Source: Stenotrophomonas sp. 364
Lineage (GTDB): Bacteria > Pseudomonadota > Gammaproteobacteria > Xanthomonadales > Xanthomonadaceae
Assembly: GCF_009832905.1 (NCBI RefSeq)
Contig: NZ_CP047135.1
Coordinates: 40,001-104,000 of the forward strand
Reading direction: 5' to 3'
DNA length: 64,000 nucleotides
Shown here: positions 32,558-55,969 of the stretch, piece by piece
Position numbering within the stretch: the stretch's first letter is position 1
Layout of the letters: each line of letters begins with the position of its first letter
Made by a program: the position numbers and the translations under genes
The notes under the pieces: model-generated
Told to the model about the DNA's origin: nothing
Databases searched by the model: none
Seen by the model: the letters and a program-made list of their open reading frames with translations, nothing else

Positions 32558-32607
32558 GGCTCCGCCACGACAGACCAGCGGCCTGTCGCATCGAAGTTGC
32601 GTCCGAC

Positions 32608-32823
32608 TCAGTACAGGCGCTGACGCTTGGTAACGTCGCGCGACGACCGGCGCAGCTGACGCTTCACAGCAGCAGCAGCCTTACGCTTGCGCTCCTGGGT
32701 CGGCTTTTCATAGAACTCGCGCTTGCGGGTTTCGGCCAGCACGCCGGCCTTTTCGCAGGTGCGCTTGAAGCGACGGAGCGCAAACTCGAAGGGCTCGTTC
32801 TCGCGGACTTTAACGCTGGGCAT
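32608..32823 (-). CDS. rpsU: 30S ribosomal protein S21
   Basis: 71 residues, a complete S21: [21 protein letters not shown], then [20 protein letters not shown] and a basic tail ending RQRLY. S21 helps 16S-mRNA pairing at initiation. It is the first gene of the yqeY-dnaG string and is divergent from tsaD, the classic arrangement. A strong promoter lies upstream and a terminator directly downstream. Confidence 0.97.
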
Positions 32824-32845
32824 GGAATCTCCGGGACACAGTAGA

Positions 32846-32862
32846 ACCGGGTCACGCCCGGT
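32846..32862 (-). other. Hairpin in the rpsU leader
   Basis: ACCGGG-TCACG-CCCGGT folds as a perfect 6-bp stem with a 5-nt loop. It lies between the predicted transcription start and the rpsU ribosome site (GGAG near 32830). It could be a stability element or a site of feedback by S21; neither is shown. Confidence 0.5.
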
Positions 32863-32873
32863 GAGAGCCGCAC

Positions 32874-32901
32874 ATTATAGCGGCGACAAAAGAAGTTGCA
32901 A
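32874..32901 (-). promoter_or_regulatory. Sigma-70 promoter of the rpsU operon
   Basis: Read on the minus strand: TTGCAA, a 16-bp spacer, then a perfect TATAAT. The predicted start gives a leader of about 45 nt before rpsU. It is the best consensus promoter seen in the window. Confidence 0.85.
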
Positions 32902-32989
32902 CCCACCCCGGCAAACTTCTTGGCCACAGGTGGTGTCAGGTGGGCTGGCGGTAACGCTGCCGGGGCCTCAGCGGTCCATAATACCCGGT

Positions 32990-34015
32990 ATGCGAGTCCT
33001 TGGTATTGAATCTTCCTGTGATGAGACCGGCGTGGCGGTGTACGACACCGCCCTGGCCGGCCCGGACGCTCTGCGCGCCCATGCGGTCTACAGCCAGATC
33101 GCCCTGCACGCCGAGTACGGCGGGGTGGTGCCTGAACTGGCCAGCCGCGACCACGTGCGCAAGCTGCTGCCGCTGATCCGCCAGACCCTGGCCGAGGCCG
33201 GGATGGGCGTGGCCGACATCGACGGGGTGGCCTATACGGCCGGCCCGGGGCTGGTCGGCGCGCTGCTGGTGGGGGCGGGCGTGGCCCGCTCGCTGGCCTG
33301 GGCGCTGGAGGTGCCGGCGGTCGGCGTACACCATATGGAAGGGCACCTGCTGGCTCCGTTGATGGAAGACGACCCGCCGCAGGCCCCGTTCGTGGCGCTG
33401 CTGGTGTCCGGCGGGCATACCCAGCTGGTGGCAGTGGACCGGATCGGCCAGTACCGCCTGCTGGGCGAGACCCTGGACGATGCGGCCGGCGAGGCCTTCG
33501 ACAAGACCGCCAAGCTGATGGGCCTGCCGTATCCGGGTGGCCCGCAGCTGGCGGCGCTGGCCGAGCGCGGTACCCCGGGCAAGTACACGTTCACCCGCCC
33601 CATGACCGACCGGCCCGGGCTGGATTTCAGTTTCTCCGGGCTGAAGACCCAGGTGCTGCTGGCCTGGCGCGACAGCGACCAGAGCGAGCAGACCCGCGCC
33701 GACATCGCCCGGGGCTTTGAAGATGCCGTGGTGGACACCCTGGCCATCAAGTGCGAGCGCGCGCTGGATGCGGCCGGTACCGATGTGATCGTGGTGGCCG
33801 GCGGGGTGGGCGCCAACAAGCGGCTGCGCGCCAAGCTGCAGCAGATGGCGGCCCGCCGTGGGGGCCGGGCCTGCTTCCCGCGCCCGTCGCTGTGTACCGA
33901 CAACGGCGCGATGATCGCCTTCGCCGGCGCGCTGCGGCTGGAAGCCGGCCAGCACACGCCGCCGCAGGTGCAGGTCACCCCGCGCTGGGACATGGCGACG
34001 CTGCCGGCGGTGTAG
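32990..34015 (+). CDS. tsaD: tRNA N6-threonylcarbamoyladenosine transferase
   Basis: 341 residues. It transfers the threonylcarbamoyl group to A37 of ANN-decoding tRNAs, together with TsaB and TsaE. Motifs seen: [16 protein letters not shown] (nucleotide site), [11 protein letters not shown] (metal-binding histidines), [19 protein letters not shown] and [16 protein letters not shown] 32990 begins the canonical N terminus. A CATAAT box ends only 7 bp before it and no Shine-Dalgarno is visible, so the message may be leaderless. Confidence 0.96.
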
Positions 34016-41777: not shown

Positions 41778-43076
41778 TCAGGCCGGTCGGTCCTTGCGCG
41801 GCAGCATGTAGATCACCGCGCCCACCGCGAAGGCAATGCCGGCGGCGGCGATGTTCTGCCAGCTGGCACTCACGAACAGCGCCACGCACAGCACCAGCGC
41901 CAGCACCGGAATCACCGGGCCACCCGGCAGCTTCAACGCACCGGGGCGGTCGCGGAAACGGCGCGCCAGTACCAGCACCGCCGCGGCCGTGCCGATATAG
42001 GCAAACAGGCGCGTGGTCATCGACAACAGCGCCAGCTGCACGAACGAACCGGACAGCGCCAGCGCCAATGCGATCACGCCCTGGGTCACGATGGCCGCCG
42101 CCGGCGTGCGGAAGCGCGGGTGCACGTTGGCCAGCACCTTCGGCCCGTAGCCATCGCGGGCCAGGGCGAACAGGAAGCGCGGGCCCATCATCATGGTGTT
42201 GCTGTTGGTGCCGAGGATGGAAATGGTGGCGCCGATGGTGAGGATCAGCGCCAGCGCTTCTCCGCCGAAGCGGGAGGCCGCGTCGGCCAGCGGCGTGGGC
42301 GAGGCGGCCAGGTTGGCCAGCGTGCCCTGTGCCACCAGCTGTACCGCACCGTAAATGACGGTGACGCTGATGATCATGGTGATCAGCGCGAACGGAATGT
42401 CGCGGCGCGGGTTCTTGTACTCGCCCGCGGCGGCCGGGATGTTCTCGAAGCCCGCATAGGCGTACAGCAGCAGCAACGCCGCCTCGCCCATGCGCTGCAG
42501 GTCGTGCGGGTCCGGGCGGACCCCGGAGAAGGCCAGATCCATGTCGACGTAGAACGCGCCGATCGCCACGAACAGCAGCAACGGCAACAGCTTGCCGATC
42601 ACCAGGATCACCCCGGTGCGCGCGGCCGAACGCACGCCGGCCACGTTGACGGCGGTGAGGAAGCCCAGCGACACCACGATGATCAGCACGCGGCCGAGGT
42701 CGTGCCCGGCCCATGGCCAGAACCGTGCGACTGCGTCCGCCAGCGCGTTGCTGAGCGCGGCGGCCGAGCTGATCCGGGTGAGCCAGATCATCCAGCCGAT
42801 CTCGAACCCGGCAAACCGCCCGAACGCCTCGCGGGCGTACAGGTAGCTGCCACCGGGTTGGTCGAAGTAGCTGGCCGCCTGCGCGTAGCACAGCACCAGC
42901 AGCGCCACCACGATGCCGGCGGCAACCACGCCCCACAGGCTGAAGGGCCCGAGCAGGGCGACGGTGGCGGCGGGCAGCAGGTAGATGCCGCTGCCGATCA
43001 CATCGTTGATCGACAGCCCGACGATCTGCCAACGGCTGACCGCGCGTTCCAGTTGGGGATCGGCCGGGGCGCTCAT
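41778..43076 (-). CDS. APC family amino acid permease
   Basis: 432 residues with about twelve membrane helices. The first helix carries the substrate-site motif INDVIGSGIYLLPA, and later blocks are QPGGSYLYAREAFG and AYAGFENIPAAAGEYKNPRRD. It imports amino acids with protons or sodium; specificity cannot be read. Its start overlaps the stop of the upstream L,D-transpeptidase-like gene by 4 bp (ATGA), so they are cotranslated. In this locus it may take up Ala, Glu or related products of murein peptide breakdown. Confidence 0.93.
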   Translation of the reverse strand: MSAPADPQLERAVSRWQIVGLSINDVIGSGIYLLPAATVALLGPFSLWGVVAAGIVVALLVLCYAQAASYFDQPGGSYLYAREAFGRFAGFEIGWMIWLTRISSAAALSNALADAVARFWPWAGHDLGRVLIIVVSLGFLTAVNVAGVRSAARTGVILVIGKLLPLLLFVAIGAFYVDMDLAFSGVRPDPHDLQRMGEAALLLLYAYAGFENIPAAAGEYKNPRRDIPFALITMIISVTVIYGAVQLVAQGTLANLAASPTPLADAASRFGGEALALILTIGATISILGTNSNTMMMGPRFLFALARDGYGPKVLANVHPRFRTPAAAIVTQGVIALALALSGSFVQLALLSMTTRLFAYIGTAAAVLVLARRFRDRPGALKLPGGPVIPVLALVLCVALFVSASWQNIAAAGIAFAVGAVIYMLPRKDRPA

Positions 43077-43882
43077 CGGGTGGTTTCCGGTGCGGGCGGC
43101 AGGTTCCAGTCGTGCTGCATCTGTTGGTACTGCGTGCGCGGCAGCAGCACGAACAGGGGGCGCCTGGTCGGATCCAGCCAGGCCAGCAGGCGCTGCATGT
43201 GTTCGGGCTGCATGGCGGTGCAGCCGGCGGTGGCCTCCCCGGGCGTGCGCCACAGGTGGGCGAAGATGCAGCTGCCGAGGCGCGCTTCGCCCTTCGGGTT
43301 GTGCTCGATCACAAAGCCCTCGCGATAGCGCACATCCCCTTTGTTGTGCAGGTCCAGACGCATCGGCTCGGTGGAGCCTTCCACCGCGTCGCTACCCACG
43401 ACCTCGGCGTCGACGATGCGGTTGTAGTACGGCGAATCGGGCACGTCCATGCAGTAGCTGCTGGCCAGCATCGCCTGGTACGGCAGGGCGGTGGTGATCG
43501 TCGGGGCGTAGCCGAAGGCCAGGCCGATGGTGAAGACGCCGGCCGGGCTGCGACCATCGCCTTCCTTCTTTACCGGGTCCCCGGGCTTCACCGGGTCACC
43601 AGGTTGGTGCGGGCCAACGCCTTGCGCCGGTACCACGCCCACGCCCCAGGCGCTGCCGTTGCGGCCTACGGCCACGTCGAATGCGCTGCCCTGTGGCGTC
43701 CAACCGTGCGGGGTGCGTTCATAGGCCTGCAGCCGGCCATGGGCGGCATCCCAGCTGTCAGTGACGACCACGATCATCTGGTGGTGGTCCTGCAACGGCC
43801 CCACTGCCGGAGTGAGCGCGGCGGCGGGCAGGGCGCTGGTGGCCAGCACGACGGCGAAGACGGATCGGAACAACGGCAGCAT
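43073..43882 (-). CDS. Exported L,D-transpeptidase-like (YkuD) protein
   Basis: 269 residues with a signal peptide (ending AAA-LT). The C-terminal domain has the YkuD active-site order: IFAHLW with its His, then after a short loop TAGCTAM with the nucleophile Cys. YkuD enzymes form or cut L,D bonds at meso-diaminopimelate in murein. A PGDPVKPGDPVK direct repeat (near 43571-43602) is inserted between the domain's first strands. It is 30 bp downstream of the RpiR regulator and overlaps the permease. Confidence 0.87.
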   Translation of the reverse strand: MLPLFRSVFAVVLATSALPAAALTPAVGPLQDHHQMIVVVTDSWDAAHGRLQAYERTPHGWTPQGSAFDVAVGRNGSAWGVGVVPAQGVGPHQPGDPVKPGDPVKKEGDGRSPAGVFTIGLAFGYAPTITTALPYQAMLASSYCMDVPDSPYYNRIVDAEVVGSDAVEGSTEPMRLDLHNKGDVRYREGFVIEHNPKGEARLGSCIFAHLWRTPGEATAGCTAMQPEHMQRLLAWLDPTRRPLFVLLPRTQYQQMQHDWNLPPAPETTR

Positions 43883-43912
43883 CGTGGCGGACTCCAGAAG
43901 AGCAGGTGTTGA

Positions 43913-44761
43913 TCAGGTATCGATCAGGTGTTCGATCCGTTCCAGGTTCACCCCGAGCTGGCGGTGGCGGTCCGGGTTGGCATGGCACAGCAGCACGAAG
44001 ACGAAATCCAGCAGGGACTGCAATGAGGCACGGTACAGCAGCTGGGCCAGGTGTGGCGCCGGGTCGTGCGCGCACAGCACCAGGGACGCATCGGCGTGCG
44101 CGCGCAGCGGGTTGGCGCTGTGCCGGGTGATCGACACCACCTTGCCGCCCACGTCCTGGAACTGGCGCGACAGCTGGAACAACTGCGGTAGCTTGCCGAA
44201 CTCGGAAAACACCAGCATCACGTCGTTGGCGCGTGCCGCCGACAGGTTGGCCATCATCAGGATCGGGTCGGCGTGGTGCACGGTGAGCATGCCCAGCAAA
44301 GACAGCCGCATGGCGAACTCGCGCGCATACAGGCCGTCGTCGCCCAGGCCGTAGACGAACACCTTGGGCGCGGCGTCGATCAAGTGCACGATGGCCTCGA
44401 CATCGGCCTGCGGGTTGGCCACCCGGGTCTCTTCCTCGGCGGCGGCCTTGCTCAGCCGCAGGCGCTCGGCGATACCGGTGTAGGCGTTGCTGTCGGCCGC
44501 GGCCGGCGCCTGGGCCTGGGTGCCGTTGCCGGCGCGGGCCACCGCTTGGCCGATGGAGTACTTCAGGTCGGGGTAGCCCTTGAAGCCCAGCTTCTGGCTG
44601 AACTTGACCACGCTGGACTGGCTGATCCCCAGTGCGCTGGCCAGCTGCTGGGACGAGTAGTCGCGCAGCAGGTGGGCGTTGTCGAGGATGAAGTCGGCGA
44701 TGCGGCGTTCGATTGCCGACATGTGGTCACGCTCGGAGCGGATTTTCACCAGAGGGGGCAT
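43913..44761 (-). CDS. MurR/RpiR family transcriptional regulator
   Basis: 282 residues. The N-terminal helix-turn-helix (about 15-75) contains YSSQQLASALGISQSSVVKFSQKLG, seen as ALGISQSSVVKFSQKLGF. A C-terminal SIS domain (about 120-260) contains VFVYGLGDDGLYAREFA, in which the usual serine of GxGxS is replaced by Asp. SIS domains of this family bind phosphosugars; MurR senses MurNAc-6-phosphate. The neighbours here are all murein-peptide enzymes, so a muropeptide-derived signal is a fair guess. The upstream frame runs through SMAG repeats and is rejected. Confidence 0.9.
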   Translation of the reverse strand: MPPLVKIRSERDHMSAIERRIADFILDNAHLLRDYSSQQLASALGISQSSVVKFSQKLGFKGYPDLKYSIGQAVARAGNGTQAQAPAAADSNAYTGIAERLRLSKAAAEEETRVANPQADVEAIVHLIDAAPKVFVYGLGDDGLYAREFAMRLSLLGMLTVHHADPILMMANLSAARANDVMLVFSEFGKLPQLFQLSRQFQDVGGKVVSITRHSANPLRAHADASLVLCAHDPAPHLAQLLYRASLQSLLDFVFVLLCHANPDRHRQLGVNLERIEHLIDT

Positions 44762-44807
44762 GGGTGGGGCATCGGGTCCGGAAAGGAGAGCATACGCAAA
44801 CCGCCGG

Positions 44808-44969
44808 GCAGAGCCGACCGTTGGTCGGCTGCGCACCCCGGAATTGCACGAGGCAGAGCCGACCGTTGGTCGGCTACGCACCCCGGAATTGCACGAGGTA
44901 GAGCCGACCGTTGGTCGGCTGCGCACACCGGAATTGCGCGAACAGCAGCCACCCATGGGGTGGCTCTAC
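44808..44969. repeat. SMAG array: three copies at 45-bp period plus one inverted copy
   Basis: Copies at 44808-44830, 44853-44875 and 44898-44920 (+) share the AGCCGACC/GGTCGGCT stem. They recur every 45 bp with a conserved spacer (GCGCACCCCGGAATTGCACGAG-like, with small changes). The first two begin GCAG instead of GTAG. A fourth, inverted, copy of the CCATGG subtype is at 44947-44969. The array fills the gap between the regulator and the epimerase gene. Confidence 0.85.
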
Positions 44970-44990
44970 CCGCAGGCGGTGCAGGCAGGG

Positions 44991-46097
44991 TCACCACCGC
45001 GGCGGCGTGATCATCTCCAGCCCCCGCACCTCGGTGATGCCCAGCCCGGGCGCGTCGCTGATGGTGATCTCCGATTCGTTGAAATTCACCCCGCCGCTGA
45101 CCGGGTTGAACTGCCCCAGCGACGGTCCGTCCAGGTCCACCTTGGTGATCACATCGCTCTTGGCCACCGCCAGGTGCACGGCCGCCGCCACGCTGATGCT
45201 CGACTCGATCATGCAGCCGATCATGCACGGTACCCCGTAGATGGCGGCGATGTCGGCGATGCGGATCGCGTTGGACAGCCCGCCGGTCTTCATCAGCTTG
45301 ATGTTGATGATGTCCGCGGCGCGTTGCTGGATCAGGTCGACCACCTGGCCGGGGTTGAACACGCTCTCATCGGCCATCACCGGCGTGTTGACCCGGTCGG
45401 TGACGTACTTCAGCCCGCTGATGTCGGCGGCCTTCACCGGCTGTTCCAGCAGTTCCAGCACCACCCCGGCCTCTTCCAGCGTGCGCATCGCGTGCACCGC
45501 CTGCTTGGCGGTCCAGCCCTGGTTGGCGTCCAGGCGCAGCAGCGCACGCCCCTGCACGGCGGCGTGGATCGCCTTGACCCGTTCGATGTCCAGGCCGATG
45601 TCCTTGCCCACCTTGATCTTCAGCGACTCGAAACCGCGTTCGATCGCCGACAGCGAATCGGCCACCATCTTGTCGATGTAGTCCACGCTGATGGTGATGT
45701 CGGTGGTGATCACCGGGTCGCCACCGCCCAGCATCTGGTACAGCGGCGCCTTGTGCAGCTGCGCCCACAGGTCGTACACCGCGATCTCCACCGCGGCCTT
45801 GGCGCTGGTGTTGCGTTCCATCGCACTCTGGATCAGCGCGCACACATGGTTGAGGTTGGCCACGTCCTGGCCGATCAGGCGCGGCTTGATGAAACTGTTG
45901 ATGGCCTCGATGATCGAGCCGTGGGTATCACCGGTGATCACCGCGGTGGCCGGCGCTTCGCCGTAGCCGGTATGGCCGGTATCGGTGCGCACCAGCACCA
46001 CCACGTCTTCCACCGTATCCACGGTGCGCAGCGCGGTCTTGAACGGGGTCTTCAACGGCACGCGCAGCATGCCAAGTTCGATGTCGGTGATCTTCAT
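44991..46097 (-). CDS. ykfB: L-Ala-D/L-Glu epimerase
   Basis: 368 residues, enolase superfamily. The capping domain opens MKITDIELGMLRVPLKTPF. Barrel residues are all there: the lysine pair in SLKIKVG, metal ligands in LRLDANQGW, LLEQPV and VMADESVF, and the second catalytic lysine in INIKLMKTGG; MIGCMIESSIS is typical of dipeptide epimerases. It turns L-Ala-D-Glu from murein into L-Ala-L-Glu, which ordinary peptidases can use. Its start overlaps the stop of the NlpC/P60 gene by 4 bp. Confidence 0.94.
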   Translation of the reverse strand: MKITDIELGMLRVPLKTPFKTALRTVDTVEDVVVLVRTDTGHTGYGEAPATAVITGDTHGSIIEAINSFIKPRLIGQDVANLNHVCALIQSAMERNTSAKAAVEIAVYDLWAQLHKAPLYQMLGGGDPVITTDITISVDYIDKMVADSLSAIERGFESLKIKVGKDIGLDIERVKAIHAAVQGRALLRLDANQGWTAKQAVHAMRTLEEAGVVLELLEQPVKAADISGLKYVTDRVNTPVMADESVFNPGQVVDLIQQRAADIINIKLMKTGGLSNAIRIADIAAIYGVPCMIGCMIESSISVAAAVHLAVAKSDVITKVDLDGPSLGQFNPVSGGVNFNESEITISDAPGLGITEVRGLEMITPPRW

Positions 46098-47524
46098 TCA
46101 GGAGTCTTGGCTCGAAGGCGCTGGATGTTGGTGATGCGGTCGATGTAGCTCACGGTGTCGCTGGCCATCATCGGCTCCAGCGGGGTCACCGACACGCCGT
46201 TGAGGTGCGCCTGCACGCGGGTGCCGTCGGGGCCGGACCAGCTGCCGCCGGCGGTGTCATGGATTACCCAGGTGCGGCCGTCCACATGGCCGATGGTCAT
46301 CATGACGTGGCCGGGGATGTAGACCAGGTCGCCCACCTGCAGCTGGTTCACCGCCGTGGTGCGCCGGGCCTTGCTGTCCTTGCCGGCGAAGGCGATACGG
46401 TCCAGCGCCGGGCTCACCGCCTGCGCGCTGGTGTTGCGCGGCATCAGCACGCCCACGCTGCGGTAGATCTCGGACACGAAGCCGCTGCAGTCGCGGGTGT
46501 CGTAGTCGTGGCCCCAGCCGTAGCGCTCGCCAAGGAACTTGAAGGCCTGGGTGAGCAGGGTGCGCGGGGTCAGCGGCAGGTAGTCGGCCGCACTGTCCTG
46601 CGAGCGCGGCAGCAGCGCTGGTACCAGCGCCAGGCGACCATCGTCATTGCGCACCGGCAGCTGCAGCACGTAACCGGCGTGCGCCTGCTGGCCGTTCACC
46701 GGGGTGCCCGGCGGCCAGTCGGCCAGCACCGGCAGCCGCACGCCCATGTCCAGCTGCAGGCGCGACACGCGCGGTTCTTCCGGCGTGTAGGCGGTGAAGG
46801 CGGTCGCGCCGGTGATCACCCGGTACGGCCCGCGCTGGCCGTAGCCGAGCACCGTGGCCGCATCGCCGATGCCGACGAAGCGTTTCTCGATCCATGCCGC
46901 ATAGCGCTCGCTGGTGACGAACAGCCATTGGCCATCGGCGCTTTCATGCATCACCGCCACCGCGTCGCCGGGGAACAGCGCCGATTCCTGGAAGCGGTCG
47001 ATATCGGTGTCGCCCTGGGTGGTGAACACCCGCAGCGAGGTGGGGAAGGCGCGCAGTGCGGCGCGATGGGTGACCAGTCCGTACTGCAGCGCGCGTTGTG
47101 CGGGAATGGCCGCCAGCGCCAGGTTGTCCACGCTGGCGCTGCGCTGCGCCGCACCGAGCGGCTTGCCATCCACGCCGTACAGGGTTTTCTCCGGCCACTT
47201 CGACAGTGCCTGCACCGCGGCCAGTACCTGTGCACGCGGCAGCTGTGCGGGCAGTGCGCGCAGGTCGTGGATGGAGGCATCTTCGGCGCGCATGCGCGCG
47301 TTCTGCGCGTCGATCTGGGCGCGGTCCAGGATCACCGCATCGGCATTGGGCAGGCGGGCGGCCCAGTACTGCGGGGTGAGGTGGGCCTCATGCAGATCCA
47401 CCACATACGGCAGCGGCGCGCCCGGGTCGGGGGTGCCGGGCGCGCTGCCGTCGGCGGCCCACGCCGGCGCGCCGGACACCGCCAGCAACAGTGCCAGCAC
47501 GCGTTTGGCGGCGGCGCGGGTCAT
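46094..47524 (-). CDS. ykfC: Exported SH3-NlpC/P60 (C40) endopeptidase, YkfC-like
   Basis: 476 residues with a signal peptide (MTRAAAKRVLALLLAVSGAPAWA, about 23 residues). SH3b-type domains occupy the middle (AVAVMHESADGQWLFVTSE, YAAWIEKRFVG). The C-terminal NlpC/P60 domain has nucleophile Cys346 in DTRDCSGFVSEIY and the histidine in IPGHVMMTIGHV, with a second His in WVIHDTAGG. YkfC-type enzymes cut the gamma-D-Glu to diaminopimelate bond of murein peptides that have a free L-Ala. Pairing with an epimerase, by 4-bp overlap, repeats the ykfB-ykfC partnership of Bacillus. Its own start overlaps the zinc-ribbon gene. Confidence 0.93.
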   Translation of the reverse strand: MTRAAAKRVLALLLAVSGAPAWAADGSAPGTPDPGAPLPYVVDLHEAHLTPQYWAARLPNADAVILDRAQIDAQNARMRAEDASIHDLRALPAQLPRAQVLAAVQALSKWPEKTLYGVDGKPLGAAQRSASVDNLALAAIPAQRALQYGLVTHRAALRAFPTSLRVFTTQGDTDIDRFQESALFPGDAVAVMHESADGQWLFVTSERYAAWIEKRFVGIGDAATVLGYGQRGPYRVITGATAFTAYTPEEPRVSRLQLDMGVRLPVLADWPPGTPVNGQQAHAGYVLQLPVRNDDGRLALVPALLPRSQDSAADYLPLTPRTLLTQAFKFLGERYGWGHDYDTRDCSGFVSEIYRSVGVLMPRNTSAQAVSPALDRIAFAGKDSKARRTTAVNQLQVGDLVYIPGHVMMTIGHVDGRTWVIHDTAGGSWSGPDGTRVQAHLNGVSVTPLEPMMASDTVSYIDRITNIQRLRAKTPE

Positions 47525-47967
47525 GCCGCCCACTCCGTGGCCACATCGGCCGCATAGCGCTTCGGTAGCGAAGGCGCCGCGCGGTAGTAGGTGCCCATGC
47601 GAACGTAGGCGTGCGCGCGCCAGGGGAACTGCGCGATGGCGGTCGCAATGGTGGCTTCCAGCGCCGCCCGGTCGGCCCAGGTGGTACCGCAGCTGCCGCA
47701 GCCCCATACCGGCGGGTGCAGCGTATCGACCCAGCAGGCATCGCCGGTGCAGGCGCATTCCGGACAGGGCAGGGAGGGCGTGGGGTCGACCGGGCGCGCG
47801 GCACCGGGCTGGGTGGGGTCCACCGCAGTGCCGTGGTAGCAGTGCGGGCAGTCCAGCATCACCAGGCGCATGCCCTTGGCGCGGCAGGTATCGAACAGCA
47901 CGGCCTGCGCCCCGGTCGGCACGAAAGCGGCCTGGCAATGGTCGCAGCGCAGCTCTGGATGATTCAT
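47521..47967 (-). CDS. Zinc-ribbon protein of unknown function
   Basis: 148 residues, no signal peptide. Cysteine pairs recur along the first 100 residues: CDHCQ, DTCRAKG, DCPHC, CPECACTGDAC and WGCGSC, enough for two zinc ribbons. The C-terminal 50 residues are helical and cysteine-free. It is the first gene of the operon and overlaps the C40 endopeptidase start by 4 bp (ATGA). A GGAGGAC ribosome site precedes the ATG. The tight coupling suggests a joint role, perhaps regulatory or as a chaperone, but none is known. Confidence 0.8.
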   Translation of the reverse strand: MNHPELRCDHCQAAFVPTGAQAVLFDTCRAKGMRLVMLDCPHCYHGTAVDPTQPGAARPVDPTPSLPCPECACTGDACWVDTLHPPVWGCGSCGTTWADRAALEATIATAIAQFPWRAHAYVRMGTYYRAAPSLPKRYAADVATEWAA

Positions 47968-47997
47968 GGGGCACGTCCTCCAGCGGCGGCGGGTGTC

Positions 47998-48069
47998 ATG
48001 GAATACTTATTCCTTTCGCTGTGGAATGCAAGAATAAATTATTGACCGACGTCACGGCCCGTGTTACAC
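47998..48069. promoter_or_regulatory. Divergent promoter region with palindromic operator candidate
   Basis: An AT-rich island in GC-rich DNA. GGAATACTTATTCC (48000-48013) is a perfect inverted repeat with a 2-bp centre; GGAAT (48023-48027) and GAATAA (48032-48037) repeat its halves one to two helical turns away. On the plus strand TTGACC (48042-48047) with TTACAC (48064-48069) may serve the transglutaminase operon. On the minus strand TTGCAT and TAAGTA, 16 bp apart, may serve the zinc-ribbon operon, with the palindrome covering its -10. The RpiR-type regulator nearby is the natural candidate binder. Confidence 0.6.
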
Positions 48070-48101
48070 AGCCTTACCACCCGCGCTGGGGAAGTGTCGC
48101 T

Positions 48102-49604
48102 GTGGATCGTGTCGTTCGCAAACCGTTTGTGCCTGTTGCCGCCAGTCTGCTGGTGGCAGCGCTGCTGTCGGTGCCGTCGGCCCAGGCCGGGCGCGCCGAC
48201 ACCGGCACGGCAGACGACGCGGCCGAACACGCGCGCGTCGCCGATCTCATCGATGCCGGGTACTTCGCCCGCGCCGAGCAGCGCATCGCCACGCACGGCA
48301 GCCCGCCGCCAGCGGCCTACGACGAACACACGCTGGCCTTCCAGCGCGAGCGCATGCGGCGGATCCGGCTGGATTTCAGCCTGGACACCGCCGCGACCAA
48401 AGACGCCGTGCGGCGTTCGATTCCGGACCTGCGCGACGACGAATTCGAGCGCTGGGACCGGCAGGGGCTGTTGGAGCATCTGGACATCGACGGCACCCGG
48501 TTCTACTTCAAGCGCGCGCCGTCCAATCTGTTCCGGCTGAGCGATGAAGCACATGCGCGCCGCCGTGCCGACGCGCCACTGCCCAGCGACGGTCCGTTCG
48601 AACACCTCACCCCGTACCACGCCAACGTGGTGGAGGCGGCCACGGCATCGGGGCAATCGTCGGTGCTGCCGCAGCGGGTGGAAGTCACCCAGTCGCTCAC
48701 GGTGAAGGCCGATGCGGTGCCCGCCGGCACCACGCTGCGCGCGTGGATTCCGTACCCGCGCGCCATCGCCGGCCAGCAGGAACAGATCCAGTGGCGCGGC
48801 AGCACGCCCGACCAGGCGCGCATTGCCCCGGCCAGCGCGCTGCAACGCACGGCCTACCTGGAAGGCACCGCCGTGGCCGGGCAGCCCACCCGGTTCGAAA
48901 TCCGCTACGCGCTCACCGTGCAGGCCCGGCACACCCGCATCGACCCGGCCGTGGTGCGTGCCACGCCTACCGACCCGGCGCTGGCCCCGTACTTGGCCGA
49001 ACAGCCGCCGCACGTGCGCTTCACCCCGGCCCTGCGGCTGTTCTCCGACCAGGTGCTGCAAGGCGAAACCCGCCCTTACGAGGTGGCCCGCCGGCTGTTC
49101 GATGCGGTCGACCGCATTCCGTGGGCCGGCGCGCGCGAGTATTCCACCTTGACCAACATCAGCGACTACGCGCTGCACGCCGGCCACGCCGACTGCGGCC
49201 AGCAGACCCTGCTGCTGATCACCCTGCTGCGCATGAATGGCATCCCCGCGCGCTGGCAGTCGGGCATGGTCTACGCCGACGACGCGGTGGGCTACACCAA
49301 CCTGCACGACTGGGGCGCGCTGTACCTGGCCCCGTATGGCTGGGTGCCGATGGATGTCACCACCGGCCGCCTGGACAGCCCGCAGCCGGCGCTGCGCGAT
49401 TTCTACTTCGGCGGGCTTGATGCCTACCGCATCGCCTTCAACGACGCCGTCAGCCAGCCGCTGGTGCCGGCCAAGCGCTTCCCGCGCTCGGACACCGTGG
49501 ATTCGCAGCGCGGCGAGGTCGAGTGGGATGGCGGCAACCTGTACTTCGATCAATGGAACTACGACTTCCAGTCGCACATCGTGCCACTGGCGGTGAAGCG
49601 GTAA
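48102..49604 (+). CDS. Exported transglutaminase-like protein
   Basis: 500 residues. The GTG start is chosen from GGGGAAG 7 bp upstream and the signal peptide that follows (PVAASLLVAALLSVPSAQA). The N-terminal 150 residues are helical and charged. A beta-rich linker leads to a transglutaminase-like domain with Cys365 in HADCGQQTLLL, His402 in NLHDWGALYL and Asp418 in WVPMDVTTG, an intact catalytic triad. Bacterial enzymes of this fold are usually peptidases or amidases, so a murein-peptide bond is a reasonable target. First gene of an operon with the TonB-dependent receptor 43 bp downstream. Confidence 0.85.
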   Translation: MDRVVRKPFVPVAASLLVAALLSVPSAQAGRADTGTADDAAEHARVADLIDAGYFARAEQRIATHGSPPPAAYDEHTLAFQRERMRRIRLDFSLDTAATKDAVRRSIPDLRDDEFERWDRQGLLEHLDIDGTRFYFKRAPSNLFRLSDEAHARRRADAPLPSDGPFEHLTPYHANVVEAATASGQSSVLPQRVEVTQSLTVKADAVPAGTTLRAWIPYPRAIAGQQEQIQWRGSTPDQARIAPASALQRTAYLEGTAVAGQPTRFEIRYALTVQARHTRIDPAVVRATPTDPALAPYLAEQPPHVRFTPALRLFSDQVLQGETRPYEVARRLFDAVDRIPWAGAREYSTLTNISDYALHAGHADCGQQTLLLITLLRMNGIPARWQSGMVYADDAVGYTNLHDWGALYLAPYGWVPMDVTTGRLDSPQPALRDFYFGGLDAYRIAFNDAVSQPLVPAKRFPRSDTVDSQRGEVEWDGGNLYFDQWNYDFQSHIVPLAVKR

Positions 49605-49647
49605 ACGGCACCACCCACGATTCCATATCTGCAGGAGAGAGCAGGGA

Positions 49648-52647
49648 ATGAACACGAACAGGTTGAAGCGGGCGGCGCTGTGCGTCGCGTTGGGGGCGTG
49701 CCTGGGCACGTTGGCGCCGGTGGCGATGGCGCAGGACGGCGCGGTGGTGGGCAAGCTGCTTACCGACCCGGGCCAGCGCCTGGACAACGCCACGGTGACG
49801 GTGCGCAACCCGTCCACCGGCTTTGTGCGCTCGGTACGCGCCGAGGCCAATGGCAGTTACCGCATTCCGCTGCTGCCGGTGGGCACGTACGAGCTGGAGG
49901 TAGCCGTCGCCGGTGGCGCGCCCACCCGCGTGGGCCAGATCAACGTGGGCCTGGGCAGCGCCACCACGGTCAACGTACCGGTGAGTGGTGTGAGCACGCT
50001 GGGGGCGGTGGAAGTGCGCGCGCCGCAGGTGGTGTCGATGGTGGATGTGAAGTCCACCGAGTCGGCCACCAACATCACCCGCGAAGAACTGTCGCGGCTG
50101 CCGGTGGACCGTGACATCACCGCCGTCGCGCTGCTTGCGCCCGGCGCGGTCAAGGGCAAGGGGTCGCTGGGCGGGCAGGGCATTTCCTTCGGCGGCTCGT
50201 CGGTGGCCGAGAACACCGTCTACATCAACGGCCTGAACGTCACCGACTTCTACAACCGGGTGGGCTTCTCCTCGGTGCCGTTCGGCTTCTATCAGGAATT
50301 CCAGGTCAAGACCGGCGGCTACTCGGTGGAGTTCGGGCGCAGCACCGGCGGCGTGATCAACGCGGTGACCCGCTCGGGCAGCAACGACTTCCAGGCCGGC
50401 GCGCAGCTGGTGTTCGAACCGCGCGCCTGGCAGTCGCAGGCACGCGACCGCTACACCGCCGATGGCAGCCGCTACATCACCGCCAGCCGCGACGACTACA
50501 GCCGCAGCGCACTCAACGTGTTCGCTTCCGGCGCGCTGGTGCAGGACAAGCTGTTCTTCTTCGGCATGTACGAAGCGCGCGACTACACGCCCCAGTCCAC
50601 CAACGACGCCGGCACCGTGTTCAACGCCGGCAAGGCCGACGACCCCTTCTGGGGCGGCAAGCTGGACTGGCAGATCACCGACAACCAGATGCTGTCGCTG
50701 TTCGGCTTCTCCGACAAGAGCGACACCATCACCGACGTGTACCGCTACGACTACGCCAGTGGCCGCGCCGTGGGTGACAGCACCAACCAGATCTACAACA
50801 CCGTGGGCGGCAAGAACTGGTCGGGCACCTACAGCTGGCAGGTCAACAACGACCTGACCATGAAGCTGATGTACGGCGAGAACAAGCGCAACCGCTCGCA
50901 AAGCAGCCTCATGGACCAGAACTGCAACCGTGTGTTCGACAACCGCACCGCCAGCCAGGGCGTGCCCACCGCGCTGCAGGGCGACCGCAGCTGCACCAGC
51001 AGCTCGCAGCTGGAATCGGCACTGGATACCCGCAAGGCCGCGCGTGCGGATTTTGAATGGTCCATCGGCGACCACCTGCTGCGCTTCGGCCTGGACCGCG
51101 AAGAGAACACCTCCGACTACGAACGCGCCTACCCCGGTCCGGGCGGGCTGCGCTACGACGTGTACTACCGCACCCCCGGCAGCTCGCTCAACGGCGGCAT
51201 CGTGCCGGCCAGCGGGCTGGTGGTGCGCACCCGCCGCTATGAAGTGGCCGGTTCGTTCGAGACCATCAACTCGGCCTACTACCTGGAAGACAACTGGCAG
51301 GTCACCCCGAACTTCCTGCTGAACATCGGCGCGCGCGTGGAAGGGTTCGACAACAAGGGCGGCGACGGCAACAGCTACATCAAGATCGACAACATGATCG
51401 CCCCGCGCCTGGGCTTCTCCTGGGACATGCGCGGCGACGGCACCACCAAGCTGTTCGGCAACCTGGGGCGCTACTTCCTGCCCGTGGCCAACGTGATCAA
51501 CATCAAGCAGGCCGGCGGCTTCCTGGACGAGCGCACCTGGTATGAGTTCCTGGGCTATTCCGGCGCGGCAAACAACGTGCCCGGGTTGGGCGGGCAGATC
51601 GGCCCGGTGGACAATTCGCAGGGCGACGGCAGCGTGCCGGACCTGCGCGCGGAGGTGAACCGCGAGATGGACCCGGTGTACCAGGACGAAGCGATCCTGG
51701 GCTTCCAGCACATGCTGAGCGAATCGTGGTCGCTGGCCGCCAGCGTCACCTACCGCCGCCTGCACAACGCCATCGACGACATGAACATCACCGCCACCGG
51801 CCAGTGCGGTGCCATCGACGGTGTCTGGATCATGGGCAACCCCGGCCGCACCAACACCGTGTGGGGCGACAGCAACTGCGACGGCAGCAACGATGCCTGG
51901 ATCGACATCGACACCTCGCGCGAAGGCTGGGCGTTGTACGACGATGACGGCAACTACGTGGGCCAGCGCGGCTGGGTCAAGCCCAAGCGCGACTACAAGG
52001 CGCTGGAACTGCAGGTGGACCGCGCCTGGGACGGCACCTGGGGCTTCAATGCGTCCTATACGCTGGCCTATGGGCGCGGCAACGCCGAAGGCCCGGTCAA
52101 CTCCGACACCGACTTCGCCGATTCCGGGCGTACCGAGAACTTCGACAATCCGTGGGTGAACTACCGCGGCTACGGCTACCTGGCCAACGACCGCCGCCAC
52201 CAGTTCAAGTTCCGCGGCAGCTACGCGCTGACCGAGAACCTCACCGTGGCCGCCACTCTGGGCATCCAGTCGGGCAGCCCGATCACCCGCTTCGGCGCCG
52301 GCAACCCGTTCGACGACACCGACTTCCACAGCTATTACGTGTGCGTGTCCAACTGCCAGGCCACCGTGCCGTCCGAACGGGTGTTCGTGCATTCCCCGCG
52401 CGGCGGCGATGGGCGCACGCCGTGGACCTACGACCTGGACATGAGCATTGCCTACAAAGTGCCGGTGCCGCAGGACATCAACCTGAAGCTGGCCGTGTAC
52501 AACGTGCTCAACCAGCAGCGCATCGTGTCGGTGGACCAGGACTACGAACCACAGGACAGCATCGGTACGCTGAACCCGATGTACGGGTACGGCACCGGGT
52601 TCCAGTCGCCGCGCTATGCGCAGCTCACGGTGACCTGGAACTACTGA
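49648..52647 (+). CDS. TonB-dependent receptor, Oar-like
   Basis: 999 residues. Signal peptide (ending APVAMA-Q), then a carboxypeptidase-regulatory-like beta domain (AVVGKLLTDPGQRLDNATV, PLLPVGTYELEVAV), a plug domain (TNITREELSRLPVDRDIT, FGGSSVAENTVYINGLNVTDFY) and a large beta barrel ending in aromatic AQLTVTWNY. It would bring a ligand across the outer membrane using TonB energy. Neighbouring genes are murein-peptide hydrolases, so a muropeptide or peptide ligand is suggested. It lies 4 bp before the beta-lactamase-fold gene. Confidence 0.93.
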   Translation: MNTNRLKRAALCVALGACLGTLAPVAMAQDGAVVGKLLTDPGQRLDNATVTVRNPSTGFVRSVRAEANGSYRIPLLPVGTYELEVAVAGGAPTRVGQINVGLGSATTVNVPVSGVSTLGAVEVRAPQVVSMVDVKSTESATNITREELSRLPVDRDITAVALLAPGAVKGKGSLGGQGISFGGSSVAENTVYINGLNVTDFYNRVGFSSVPFGFYQEFQVKTGGYSVEFGRSTGGVINAVTRSGSNDFQAGAQLVFEPRAWQSQARDRYTADGSRYITASRDDYSRSALNVFASGALVQDKLFFFGMYEARDYTPQSTNDAGTVFNAGKADDPFWGGKLDWQITDNQMLSLFGFSDKSDTITDVYRYDYASGRAVGDSTNQIYNTVGGKNWSGTYSWQVNNDLTMKLMYGENKRNRSQSSLMDQNCNRVFDNRTASQGVPTALQGDRSCTSSSQLESALDTRKAARADFEWSIGDHLLRFGLDREENTSDYERAYPGPGGLRYDVYYRTPGSSLNGGIVPASGLVVRTRRYEVAGSFETINSAYYLEDNWQVTPNFLLNIGARVEGFDNKGGDGNSYIKIDNMIAPRLGFSWDMRGDGTTKLFGNLGRYFLPVANVINIKQAGGFLDERTWYEFLGYSGAANNVPGLGGQIGPVDNSQGDGSVPDLRAEVNREMDPVYQDEAILGFQHMLSESWSLAASVTYRRLHNAIDDMNITATGQCGAIDGVWIMGNPGRTNTVWGDSNCDGSNDAWIDIDTSREGWALYDDDGNYVGQRGWVKPKRDYKALELQVDRAWDGTWGFNASYTLAYGRGNAEGPVNSDTDFADSGRTENFDNPWVNYRGYGYLANDRRHQFKFRGSYALTENLTVAATLGIQSGSPITRFGAGNPFDDTDFHSYYVCVSNCQATVPSERVFVHSPRGGDGRTPWTYDLDMSIAYKVPVPQDINLKLAVYNVLNQQRIVSVDQDYEPQDSIGTLNPMYGYGTGFQSPRYAQLTVTWNY

Positions 52648-52651
52648 TGGG

Positions 52652-54208
52652 ATGACCGCGATGACGCTGCACCGGTGGCGTGCGCTGGTGGTGGCGCTGG
52701 CTGTTTCAGCCAGCGCCATTGCAGCGCCCGCACCGCCCTTCCAGCCGATGTTCGACCAGGCCCGGCAGCACTACGCGCTGCCGGGCCTGGCCATGGCCGT
52801 GGTGGAAGACGGACAGGTGGTCTATCAGCACACCGCCGGCGAGCGCCGCGTGGGCACAGGTGAGGCCATCGATGAGGACACGCTGTTCAAGATCGCCTCC
52901 AACAGCAAGGCGATGACCGCCGCGCTGCTGGCACGGCTGGTCGACCGCGGTGCGTTGCGCTGGGACGACCCGGTGATTCGATACCTGCCGCAGTTCCGCA
53001 TGCACGATCCGTGGGTCACCGAACACATGCAGGTGCGCGACCTGCTTATCCACAACAGTGGCCTCGGCCTGGGCGCCGGTGACCTGATGCTGTGGCCCGA
53101 ACCCAATGCCTTCACCCGGCAGGACATCATCGCCGGGCTGGCGCATCTGAAACCGGTCACCAGCTTCCGCAGTGGCTACGCCTACGACAACCTGATGTAT
53201 GTGGTGGCCGGGGAGGTCGCCGCGCGCGCGGGCGGCAAGCCGTACGACCAGTTGCTGCGCGAGGAGGTATTCGTGCCGCTGGGCATGCAGCGCTGCCAGG
53301 TGGGGGCGTGGTCGGTGGCGGCGGTGGGCAACGTGGCCCAGCCGCACGCACGCCGCGATGGCCGCAACGTGGTCACCCAGCCCGATGCCGACACCAGCCC
53401 GGACCTGACGTCCATGGCCGCCGGCGGCATCCGCTGCAGCCTCAAGGACATGACCCGCTGGATGCAGGTGCTGCTGGACCCGGCGCAGGTGCCGGGATGG
53501 CTCAGCGATGCGCAGCGCCGCGCGCTGTGGAACGCGCACATGCCGATGCCGATCGGTGCGCGCCAGCGCCAGTGGGACAACGCGCACTTCGCTGCGTATG
53601 GCTACGGCTGGCGCCTGTCGGACCTGGACGGCCAGTGGAAGGTCGCCCACACCGGCACGCTGTCGGGTATGTATTCCTCGCTGGCGCTGCTGCCGGACCG
53701 GCGCGTGGGCGTGGTGCTGTTGATCAACGGCGATGCCGAAGATGCCCGCACCGCGCTGATGCAGGCCGCGCTGCGGCACTACACCGCGCCCGATGACAGC
53801 AAGGGCGTGCTGGATTACGCGCGCCTGCTGCGCGACGAGCAGGAACAACGCCGGGACAGCGGCCACGTGCGCCCGGACACGCGTGCGCGCACGCCGGCCA
53901 GTCTGCAGGCCACGACCGCCTGGCAGGGCCGCTACCGCGACCCGTGGCTGGGGCCGGCCCGTGTGTGCCCGCACAATGGCCGGCTGCGTTTCCAGGTGGA
54001 GAAGTCGCCGCAGTTGCAGGGCACGGTGATGCAGCTGGGCGCGCGCTGGCTGGTGCAGTGGGATACGCTCGGGGCCGATGCCGAGCCCTGGCTGCAGCCG
54101 CAGCCGGGCACGCCGCCCACGCTTGCACTGCGCGCCATCGACCCGGATATCGACTTCAGCTATGACTACCAGGACCTGCAGTTCACCCGCATCGGCGATT
54201 GCCCGTAG
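52652..54208 (+). CDS. Exported serine hydrolase, beta-lactamase/class C fold
   Basis: 518 residues with a signal peptide (ending ASAIA-A). Active-site motifs are in order: Ser83-x-x-Lys86 in IASNSKAMTA, Tyr178 and Asn180 in GYAYDN, and HTG at about 333. A C-terminal beta domain of about 110 residues (DUF3471-like) follows. Such proteins may be D,D-peptidases, esterases or D-aminopeptidases and need not be resistance enzymes. The gene starts 4 bp after the receptor and overlaps the dipeptidase downstream. In this locus a role in trimming D-amino-acid peptides is likely. Confidence 0.9.
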   Translation: MTAMTLHRWRALVVALAVSASAIAAPAPPFQPMFDQARQHYALPGLAMAVVEDGQVVYQHTAGERRVGTGEAIDEDTLFKIASNSKAMTAALLARLVDRGALRWDDPVIRYLPQFRMHDPWVTEHMQVRDLLIHNSGLGLGAGDLMLWPEPNAFTRQDIIAGLAHLKPVTSFRSGYAYDNLMYVVAGEVAARAGGKPYDQLLREEVFVPLGMQRCQVGAWSVAAVGNVAQPHARRDGRNVVTQPDADTSPDLTSMAAGGIRCSLKDMTRWMQVLLDPAQVPGWLSDAQRRALWNAHMPMPIGARQRQWDNAHFAAYGYGWRLSDLDGQWKVAHTGTLSGMYSSLALLPDRRVGVVLLINGDAEDARTALMQAALRHYTAPDDSKGVLDYARLLRDEQEQRRDSGHVRPDTRARTPASLQATTAWQGRYRDPWLGPARVCPHNGRLRFQVEKSPQLQGTVMQLGARWLVQWDTLGADAEPWLQPQPGTPPTLALRAIDPDIDFSYDYQDLQFTRIGDCP

Positions 54209-54893
54209 CGCCTTGCTGATGCTGGCCGTCATCGGCGGTGCGCAGGCGCAGCCGGTAAAGGTATCCCCCGCGCGCACCGTCGAGCAGGCCGGGCTGGTCG
54301 ACCTTGCCCGCCAAGTGCCCGACATCGCACTGGACATCCGCTACGCCGGCAGCAACAACTTCACCGCCCACCCCGTGCCCGGCTACGACGCGCCCAAGTG
54401 CCTGCTGCTGGCGCCGGCGGCTACCGCACTGGCCGCGGTGGAAGCCGATCTGCGGGCCGAGGGTTACCGGCTGCGCGTGTTCGACTGCTACCGCCCGGCG
54501 CAGTCGGTGCAGGCGTTCGTGCGCTGGGCCCATGACCCGGCCGAACAGTCGCGCAAGGCGCTGCAGTATCCCGACCTGGACAAACCGGCTCTGCTGGGCG
54601 GCTACATCGCCGAGACCTCCGGCCACAGCCGCGCCGCCACCGTCGACCTGACCCTGCTCGATTGCCGCACCGGCCCCTGCAGCGCGCTGGACATGGGCAC
54701 CGACTTCGACTTCTTCGGCCCGCGTGCGCATACCGACGCGGCAGACATCAGCGCCCTCCAGCGCGGCAACCGGCAGCGGCTGGTGCAGGCGATGGCCCGG
54801 CACGGCTTTGCCAACTACCCGCTGGAGTGGTGGCACTACACCCTCCGCCCCGAGCCGGACCCGCACACCGCCTACGACGTGCCGGTGCGCTGA
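54162..54893 (+). CDS. ddpX: D-alanyl-D-alanine dipeptidase, VanX/DdpX type
   Basis: 243 residues, peptidase family M15D. The zinc site is complete: His155 and Asp162 in SGHSRAATVD, Glu222 and His225 in EWWH, with the VanX spacing; FDCYRPAQSVQAF and the substrate-clamp arginine are also present. ATG 54162 gives a plausible export signal (hydrophobic ALLMLAVIGGAQA) and overlaps the previous gene by 47 bp; TTG 54213 and ATG 54219 are alternatives that shorten the signal. It splits D-Ala-D-Ala, allowing recycling of murein ends. With no VanH or VanA nearby, resistance is not implied. Confidence 0.9.
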   Translation: MTTRTCSSPASAIARSALLMLAVIGGAQAQPVKVSPARTVEQAGLVDLARQVPDIALDIRYAGSNNFTAHPVPGYDAPKCLLLAPAATALAAVEADLRAEGYRLRVFDCYRPAQSVQAFVRWAHDPAEQSRKALQYPDLDKPALLGGYIAETSGHSRAATVDLTLLDCRTGPCSALDMGTDFDFFGPRAHTDAADISALQRGNRQRLVQAMARHGFANYPLEWWHYTLRPEPDPHTAYDVPVR

Positions 54894-54951: not shown

Positions 54952-55329
54952 ATGAACCTGCCGCTGCACTTTGGATTGCTCGGAACCCTGGAAGCAGGGC
55001 TGATCGCGCTGCTGGTCGGCCTGCTGGTGTATGCGCTGTGGCACCGCCTGTGCCGCGCGCTGGGCTGGACCGCCGGGCACGCCATCGGCTGGGCCTGCGT
55101 GATCGCGGTGGTGGTATCGGCCGGCATCGATGCGTGGAATCTGTTCTACATGGGCATGATGCGTTTGGAGTCGCCGCTGTACGCGCGGTTGTTCCTGGCC
55201 GGTATCCACGACCCCAACGAACTGGGCTCGCGTGTGGTGCTGGAAGTGGCCGGTGCACTCGGCGGTGTTGCGTTGGGCTGGATGATATTCAGTTCGCGCT
55301 CAGGCGAAAAAAACGCCAGCGACGGCTGA
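54952..55329 (+). CDS. Small membrane protein of unknown function
   Basis: 125 residues with three predicted helices (about 8-30, 42-66 and 95-112) and a conserved-looking loop WNLFYMGMMRLESPLYARLF between the second and third. No family recognised. It is 58 bp downstream of the dipeptidase and may be the last gene of that operon or a separate unit. Confidence 0.72.
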   Translation: MNLPLHFGLLGTLEAGLIALLVGLLVYALWHRLCRALGWTAGHAIGWACVIAVVVSAGIDAWNLFYMGMMRLESPLYARLFLAGIHDPNELGSRVVLEVAGALGGVALGWMIFSSRSGEKNASDG

Positions 55330-55552: not shown

Positions 55553-55969
55553 ATGACTATTCGCAACCGCAAGCCCCTGATCGCCCTGATCGTCGCCGCA
55601 GGCAGTGTGCTGGCCATTCCGGCGATGGCCCAGTCCGCGCAGCAGAGCGCCGCGCAGGCACAGAATCAGGCCGCGCAGGCCCAGCAGGCAGCGGCGCAGG
55701 CCGGCCAGGCGGCAGATTCGGCCGCAGGTGCCGCCGCGCAGGCCTCGCAGCAGGCCAGTGGTGGTGGCCAGACCTGGGCCAGTGTGGATACCGACGGCAA
55801 CGGCACCATCAGCAAGACCGAAGCCCAGGTCAATGCGGGTCTGGCCCAGGTATTCGACCAGGCAGACAGCAACAAGGATGGCGAGCTTTCGCCGGACGAG
55901 TACAAGGCGTACGTGGCGGCCCAGCAGGGCAAGGCCGCCAGTGGCAGCGGCGCACAGCCGGGCAACTGA
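55553..55969 (+). CDS. Exported EF-hand protein with Ala/Gln-rich region
   Basis: 138 residues with a signal peptide (ending PAMA-Q). Residues about 28-72 are almost only Ala, Gln, Gly and Ser. Two canonical calcium-binding loops follow: DTDGNGTISKTE and DSNKDGELSPDE. It should bind two calcium ions in the periplasm or outside the cell. GGAGACC precedes the ATG by 5 bp, and a strong terminator follows at 56045. The role is unknown; related EfhP-type proteins of Pseudomonas mediate calcium responses. Confidence 0.85.
   Translation: MTIRNRKPLIALIVAAGSVLAIPAMAQSAQQSAAQAQNQAAQAQQAAAQAGQAADSAAGAAAQASQQASGGGQTWASVDTDGNGTISKTEAQVNAGLAQVFDQADSNKDGELSPDEYKAYVAAQQGKAASGSGAQPGN

Follow-up and report, generated by a model that had tools for sequence, protein, structure and literature searches.

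The closest described counterpart of the locus reported here is the Bacillus YkfABC system, in which a YkfB-type epimerase adjoins an SH3b-NlpC/P60 endopeptidase (PMC2954226). That paper proposes an exported endopeptidase and a cytoplasmic epimerase for Bacillus cereus, an arrangement resembled by ten genes at positions 41778-54893 of a window from Stenotrophomonas sp. 364, the window being the whole 64,000-nucleotide stretch analysed (contig NZ_CP047135.1, positions 40,001 to 104,000) of a single-contig genome of 4.84 Mb. We consider it very probable that these genes form a TonB-linked peptidoglycan-peptide utilisation locus, as judged by the observed gene families, conserved linkage, catalytic residues, a palindrome, and recurrent peptidoglycan-specific neighbours. 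Compared with Bacillus YkfABC, the locus adds an outer-membrane receptor, an RpiR regulator, and three enzymes, namely an S12 hydrolase, a VanX-like enzyme, and a transglutaminase-like one; it has a YkuD-fold protein where B. subtilis has the L,D-carboxypeptidase YkfA, and its NlpC enzyme carries an Asn where YkfC has Asp256.

An outer-membrane receptor beside enzymes, an inner-membrane transporter, and a regulator is also the layout of TonB-dependent nutrient loci such as the carbohydrate loci of Xanthomonas. The N-acetylglucosamine clusters of Caulobacter are built in the same way (PMC13046382). What sets the window locus apart is its cargo, predicted to consist of peptidoglycan peptides, and its receptor, which is exchanged as a cassette while the locus around it stays fixed. 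Tannerella forsythia likewise uses external peptidoglycan fragments (PMC7670621, PMC5388701), yet its described route involves the N-acetylmuramic acid (MurNAc) sugar and the inner-membrane AmpG, unlike the window locus; the term 'TonB' has no match in either paper, and the sole match to 'SusC' is 'susceptibility' in a reference. The nearest folds to the window YkuD protein, Csd6 (PMC4599014), Pgp2 (PMC3961634), and Bd1075, are cell-shape determinants acting on the own wall, and their motif spacing differs from that of the window protein; Csd6 also has an extra NTF2-like domain. Among the matches listed, a description of this gene set was not found in open-licence literature. A table of genes common to bean-pathogen strains contains one Xanthomonas dipeptide epimerase (PMC6090828), and passages from PMC3551730 contain nothing on uptake. 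New here are a single conserved palindrome between the divergent units and the cassette exchange of the receptor.

Gene families were called by Pfam profile matches and signal peptides were judged by inspection of N-termini only. A preliminary description of this DNA had named ten genes in three adjacent transcription units. All ten are present with the stated families (the zinc ribbon from Cys pairs only), and strands and order bear out two minus-strand groups (permease-YkuD-RpiR and zinc ribbon-NlpC-epimerase) and one plus-strand group (transglutaminase-receptor-S12 hydrolase-VanX):

41778..43076, minus strand: amino-acid permease (AA_permease_2), inner membrane (Pfam)
43073..43882, minus strand: YkuD-fold protein with signal-like N-terminus, predicted L,D-carboxypeptidase converting tetrapeptide to tripeptide (Pfam, AlphaFold model, fold alignment)
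43913..44761, minus strand: RpiR/MurR-type regulator, HTH_6 + SIS (Pfam; start from crude gene call)
44991..46097, minus strand: YkfB-like dipeptide epimerase, no signal peptide seen (Pfam, PDB matches)
46094..47524, minus strand: SH3b-NlpC/P60 protein with signal-like N-terminus, predicted gamma-D-Glu-diamino acid endopeptidase (Pfam, alignment)
47521..47967, minus strand: zinc-ribbon-like protein, accessory (Cys pairs in translation)
48000..48013, no strand: palindrome GGAATACTTATTCC, candidate RpiR operator between the divergent units (motif scan)
48102..49604, plus strand: transglutaminase-like cysteine peptidase with signal-like N-terminus and predicted triad C365-H402-D418 (Pfam, model)
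49648..52647, plus strand: TonB-dependent outer-membrane receptor, CarboxypepD_reg + Plug + OMP_b-brl_4 barrel (Pfam)
52652..54208, plus strand: S12 serine hydrolase with signal-like N-terminus and SNSK/YDN/HTG motifs, AmpH/D-aminopeptidase-like (Pfam, NCBIfam)
54219..54893, plus strand: VanX-like M15 dipeptidase, probably exported, start uncertain (Pfam, NCBIfam)

By inspection, signal-peptide-like starts are present on the YkuD, NlpC, transglutaminase-like, receptor, S12, and probably VanX-like proteins, and absent from the epimerase, RpiR, and zinc-ribbon proteins. The NlpC gene and the epimerase start overlap by 4 nt.

Conservation and peptidoglycan-specific neighbours

An epimerase scan of species genomes yielded 499 relatives, and the best 80 loci were examined for gene presence by tblastn (query coverage at least 25%; several loci are broken by contig ends). 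NlpC is found in all 80 loci, RpiR in 75, YkuD in 71, the receptor in 70, the transglutaminase-like and S12 genes in 68 each, and the VanX-like gene in 62. Receptor and hydrolases therefore co-occur in relatives, as the preliminary description had expected. The inner-membrane transporter is an amino-acid permease in 48 loci and an SDF symporter, a glutamate/dicarboxylate-type transporter, in 23 (one locus has both), with neither in 10. A complete nine-gene core is present in 38 of the 80 loci, or in 49 if the symporter may replace the permease. The zinc-ribbon protein has no Pfam or NCBIfam match, and its gene was rejected as a core member because only two of the 80 loci hold it. The ten-gene locus first claimed thus comprises nine genes conserved across relatives and one local extra.

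Epimerase and NlpC genes were compared in 61 relatives at set thresholds (epimerase E 1e-100 or better and at least 47% identity; NlpC E 1e-40 or better). The same 40 genomes hold both, about 100 bp or less apart, and both are absent at these thresholds from the same 21, including same-genus G032. At E 1e-60 the epimerase occurs in 124 of 198 family genomes, representing 35 of 54 genera; of 299 genomes in a phylum-wide sample, seven have it. Gene order is largely kept in records named Stenotrophomonas, Pseudoxanthomonas, Xanthomonas, Fulvimonas, and Frateuria, and the receptor, exported degradative enzymes, inner-membrane transporter, and regulator are co-conserved in the manner of TonB-dependent nutrient loci. 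The genome of Stenotrophomonas sp. 364 has one close epimerase copy, its other match being at 26%. A record titled Bacillus subtilis SK7B5 (L038) contains a Stenotrophomonas-type locus, and that assembly is therefore probably mixed. The epimerase of G440 is split into two adjoining pieces in different frames, and in G417 about 21 kb separate two copies of the gene.

The extra enzymes at the locus in relatives are the best evidence for the peptidoglycan reading, which is strongly supported. Neighbour families were scored on example proteins and extended by clustering. At least one of four such enzymes is encoded at the same locus in 20 of the 80 cases, i.e., an AmiD-type amidase in 17 (7 of them without the transglutaminase-like gene), a diaminopimelate decarboxylase in three, a DadA-like dehydrogenase in three, and an M19 dipeptidase in two. 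The scored amidase (L103) matches Amidase_2 with 120.3 bits and lies under the AmpD equivalog cut-off; the M19 dipeptidase (L107) reaches 316.4 bits. All three locus decarboxylases exceed the lysA cut-off of 297.9 bits (468.8, 457.5, and 456.4 bits). As each of their genomes has a second lysA-like gene in a larger frame of 870-904 aa (293.6-315.5 bits), the locus copy is extra; two searched genomes without a locus decarboxylase also hold the larger gene. Thirty-one further stretches (26 new) contributed six decarboxylases, eight AmiD-type amidases, four M19 dipeptidases, six DUF819 proteins, 12 SDF symporters, and one DadA-like dehydrogenase. The DUF819 membrane protein, encoded just upstream of NlpC in L090, L107, L130, L141, L144, L145, L155, and L156, might transport wall peptides across the inner membrane.

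In L128 and L129, both from a different family, the same epimerase-NlpC pair is accompanied by MpaA, alanine racemase, an S66 L,D-carboxypeptidase, an amidase, and NamZ, as well as by a divergent Oar-type receptor and MurQ or NagA. Scores in L129 are 250.9 vs 157 bits for MpaA, 339.8 vs 168 for alanine racemase, and 390.2 vs 302 for MurQ, and both S66 Pfam domains, both NamZ Pfam domains, and Amidase_2 with a peptidoglycan-binding domain are present. NagA of L128 scores 313 vs 225.7 bits, and the L128 copies of the other enzymes were assigned by 65-94% identity. Both loci look like a whole peptidoglycan-eating island around the pair. They are the only ones among 31 loci with S66 at the locus, both lack YkuD, and none of the 80 other loci has S66 there.

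Enzymes and predicted route

The epimerase has the MR_MLE fold, its nearest solved structure is the L-Ala-D/L-Glu epimerase YkfB of Bacillus subtilis, and R24, K160, and K162, which we take to be catalytic, are present as expected. In the NlpC protein an SH3b region precedes an NlpC/P60 domain with C346, H406, and H422, presumably the catalytic Cys-His-His set; the nearest structures are 3m1u, 6sqx, and 3h41. Its Y208, invariant and in a matching strand pattern, is a possible counterpart of SH3b Tyr118 of BcYkfC, the SH3b of 3h41 lying outside the alignment. The YkuD protein matches its Pfam family weakly (25.6 vs 23.4 bits) and was placed by fold. Its AlphaFold model is nearest to L,D-carboxypeptidases, the best VIA-align 2 rows being Pgp2, Csd6, and Bd1075, the last of which we take to be an L,D-carboxypeptidase; a PDB sequence search with the YkuD profile gave no useful result. 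The transglutaminase-like protein has C365, H402, and D418, presumably its catalytic triad, and its model shows a general cysteine-peptidase fold only (best 3isr, with weak pseudomurein endoisopeptidase rows). The VanX-like protein matches Pfam M15 with 138.9 vs 27 bits and aligns end to end with 1r44.

The S12 hydrolase carries SNSK, YDN, and HTG motifs, which we assume to be catalytic. It is nearest to AmpH, itself under cut-off (105.9 vs 266 bits), and also resembles ClbP and other S12 peptidases. Identification as a beta-lactamase was rejected, as the protein falls far under every beta-lactamase cut-off among the 25 best of 47 families (class C, 89.2 vs 415 bits). The beta-lactamase-fold hydrolase of the preliminary description is thus confirmed as an S12 family member and not as a beta-lactamase.

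We infer the substrate, the order of steps, receptor uptake, and regulator binding. Stem peptides or small muropeptides would be taken up across the outer membrane by the receptor, the least supported link of the proposal. In the periplasm, the S12 hydrolase and VanX-like dipeptidase would handle D-Ala ends, the YkuD-fold protein would trim tetrapeptides to tripeptides, and the NlpC/P60 enzyme would cut D-Glu from diaminopimelate. Another bond, possibly an isopeptide or MurNAc link, may be opened by the transglutaminase-like enzyme or, in some relatives, by the AmiD-type amidase. L-Ala-D-Glu, or the amino acids released from it, would enter the cytoplasm through the permease or SDF symporter; there the epimerase would convert L-Ala-D-Glu to L-Ala-L-Glu, usable by ordinary dipeptidases. 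The RpiR regulator would act on both divergent units via the single palindrome.

Receptor exchange and the intergenic palindrome

The receptor is swapped repeatedly between relatives as a cassette while the rest of the cluster stays put. Its identity to the window receptor falls in steps (81-97, 62-65, 54-57, and 43-49%) that do not track kinship, and it hardly follows the identity of the flanking proteins, i.e., NlpC, epimerase, and the transglutaminase-like enzyme taken together (Spearman 0.13, 69 loci with the window counted), in contrast to the S12 hydrolase (0.83, 62 loci) and RpiR (0.67, 64 loci). In the 15 most extreme pairs the flanks are 95.2-96.6% identical and the receptors 47-50%. 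Single linkage at 75% sorted 71 receptors into ten classes. Placing these on the flank tree (FastTree; 17 of 66 inner branches weak) takes no fewer than 25 changes, against a theoretical minimum of nine. Shuffled class labels gave a mean of 43 changes, and none of 200 shuffles was as low as 25; the classes therefore still cluster partly by kinship. In four pairs the DNA is 92-100% identical per 50 nt until ~50-100 nt into the receptor gene, drops to ~36-78%, and recovers to 78-92% ~100-200 nt past the receptor stop. Between the window and L049 receptors, identity is 43% in the barrel, 39% in the N-terminal domain, and 71% in the plug. Elsewhere in the genome of Stenotrophomonas sp. 364, a single relative of the receptor exceeds the cut used, at 34%. 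The Oar-type receptor is the one present in 70 of the 80 loci; a second receptor family occurs in 13 and is the sole receptor in six.

Divergent alleles exchanged within similar flanks are also known for siderophore receptors such as the FpvA types, from which the window receptor differs in that it is predicted to serve wall peptides, not iron. We tentatively propose, with somewhat less than even confidence, a family-wide TonB-dependent peptidoglycan-peptide importer whose receptor is under strong diversifying pressure, with alleles exchanged by recombination and some replaced by the second family; the receptor as a door for phage or bacteriocins, or the wall chemistry of neighbours, might exert this pressure. 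Under the same tentative proposal, the recombination joints would fall close to where the signal peptide ends and no more than ~200 nt after the stop codon.

The divergent units are separated by GGAATACTTATTCC, a perfect palindrome (GGAATA-NN-TATTCC) upstream of both flanking genes, at ~33 bp from the start of the zinc-ribbon gene and ~88 bp from that of the transglutaminase-like gene; 48000-48013 is the sole site with up to two mismatches in the window. A perfect site is present exactly once per genome in all 25 same-genus genomes examined, where ~0.04 sites per genome are expected by chance, and the reversed control pattern had no match in all 41 genomes. No perfect site occurs in the 16 genomes outside the genus, although the epimerase-NlpC pair is present in three of them (G038, G042, and G052). 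In 23 of the 25 same-genus genomes the NlpC match begins 43-129 bp downstream of the site; in the window the distance is 476 bp, with the zinc-ribbon gene between, and in the fragmented G015 the site is on a separate contig. The divergent side is covered in 78 loci. In 72 of these a site with up to two mismatches lies no further than 700 bp from the called NlpC start, and in 46 it is perfect; of the remaining six, L083 and L090 carry a site 1.1-1.2 kb upstream. Over the full 1.51 Mb of the 80 loci, 80 sites with up to two mismatches occur.

RpiR probably controls both divergent units through this one candidate palindrome. Across 29 loci with NlpC, 11 have RpiR and the palindrome, nine RpiR only, one the palindrome only, and eight neither, a weak correlation among distant loci (Fisher p 0.043, kinship and five duplicate loci ignored; five of the 12 palindrome calls have two mismatches). 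The claim of a dedicated regulator stands as far as the retention of RpiR and the operator-like palindrome at the divergent promoter are concerned, with control by RpiR a prediction. Two genes downstream of VanX, encoding a small membrane-type protein (54952-55329) and an EF-hand-like protein (55553-55969), also keep their position, in 54 and 49 loci respectively if the window is included, and may be part of the plus-strand unit. Between epimerase and RpiR, at 44807-44965, a repeat occurs in three copies 45 bp apart with GCCGACCGTTGGTCGGC palindromes, presumably akin to the REP-type repeats of Stenotrophomonas; translated repeats similar to these lie near 38500.

Alternative sources and substrates

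Several observations weigh against the peptidoglycan reading. None of the four extra enzymes is encoded in 60 of the 80 loci; the DadA-like protein of L102 is an FAD oxidoreductase below the D-amino-acid dehydrogenase cut-off (202.2 vs 383 bits); and S66, MpaA, NamZ, MurQ, NagA, and Alr are confined to the two genomes of one other family, with none in the 80 closer loci. A strict genome-wide replacement of S66 by YkuD was rejected, since S66 occurs elsewhere in 7 of 37 same-genus genomes. The epimerase stays under the NCBIfam equivalog cut-offs A_G_epim_Thtga (254.9 vs 500 bits) and PRK15129 (114 vs 343 bits), models that appear to describe other lineages, and the VanX-like protein under that for VanX (173.4 vs 320 bits). 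The YkuD protein, with H209-L-X10-C221 and H194-N-X9-C205, departs from the published H(S/G/D)X14-19C spacing (PMC4599014), Foldseek alone found no match to its model at E 0.001 or better, and the Bd1075 row scores level with the first transpeptidase (Z within 1). In NlpC, N364, invariant in 31 aligned sequences, occupies the YkfC specificity position Asp256, which binds the free L-Ala amine in BcYkfC (PMC2954226); the aligned 3h41 row reads PRDS in this region. The enzyme is therefore not called YkfC; lacking this aspartate, it is perhaps not strictly limited to free peptides and may accept stems that remain attached to sugar. Finally, a peptidoglycan-binding signature is seen nowhere in the receptor, and in L127 and L156 no receptor is visible.

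The same two loci would fit a recycling of own-wall turnover peptides from the periplasm, in which the receptor only recaptures leaked ones and the periplasmic enzymes act on the cell's own turnover products. This explanation is compatible with peptidoglycan-peptide utilisation and differs from it in the source of the peptides; we regard it as rather unlikely. A receptor is retained in most loci, including six with the second family only, the epimerase route would consume the peptide instead of reusing it, and the classical recycling genes AmpG and Mpl are already in the genome, both over the NCBI cut-off, so that the locus more likely serves the catabolism of external or lost wall peptides. 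AmpG lies at genome position 31977-33251, upstream of the window and ~48 kb from the locus. The muropeptide scavenging proposed in the preliminary description is upheld by synteny, epimerase-NlpC co-occurrence, and the recurrent peptidoglycan-specific enzymes, while receptor uptake of muropeptides stays conjectural.

That the substrate is another D-amino-acid or gamma-glutamyl peptide, e.g., from secondary metabolites or polyglutamate, would agree with the diversity of the epimerase superfamily (52 PDB sequences at 1e-20, many not dipeptide epimerases), with a receptor that has no known ligand here, and with the likeness of the S12 hydrolase to ClbP and other S12 peptidases. It is improbable, however, given that relatives encode an AmiD-type amidase or a diaminopimelate decarboxylase at this locus and two genomes hold MpaA, S66, NamZ, and MurQ or NagA there, all of them peptidoglycan enzymes. 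Peptidoglycan fragments do trigger beta-lactamase in other bacteria (PMC3305447, PMC5574705), but a beta-lactam sensing or resistance device is very improbable here: besides the missed beta-lactamase cut-offs, the regulator is RpiR and not LysR/AmpR, and with a perfect palindrome once per genome no beta-lactamase gene elsewhere has that exact site. The beta-lactam signalling suggested earlier found no support. A chance adjacency of two or three unrelated operons, for which the 229-bp gap with repeats between RpiR and epimerase and the loss or replacement of RpiR, YkuD, and permease in some loci might speak, is hardly credible in view of the largely constant order across five named genera and the single palindrome common to the divergent units.

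We know of no described example of an outer-membrane importer of cell-wall peptides. If peptidoglycan-peptide utilisation is the true function of the locus, its receptor would be a concrete candidate for such an importer, the locus would offer a single candidate operator in each genome, and a YkuD-fold L,D-carboxypeptidase that is predicted to be exported would serve feeding instead of cell shape. Exchange of the receptor with the enzymes near constant would be a natural experiment on why outer-membrane receptors diversify.

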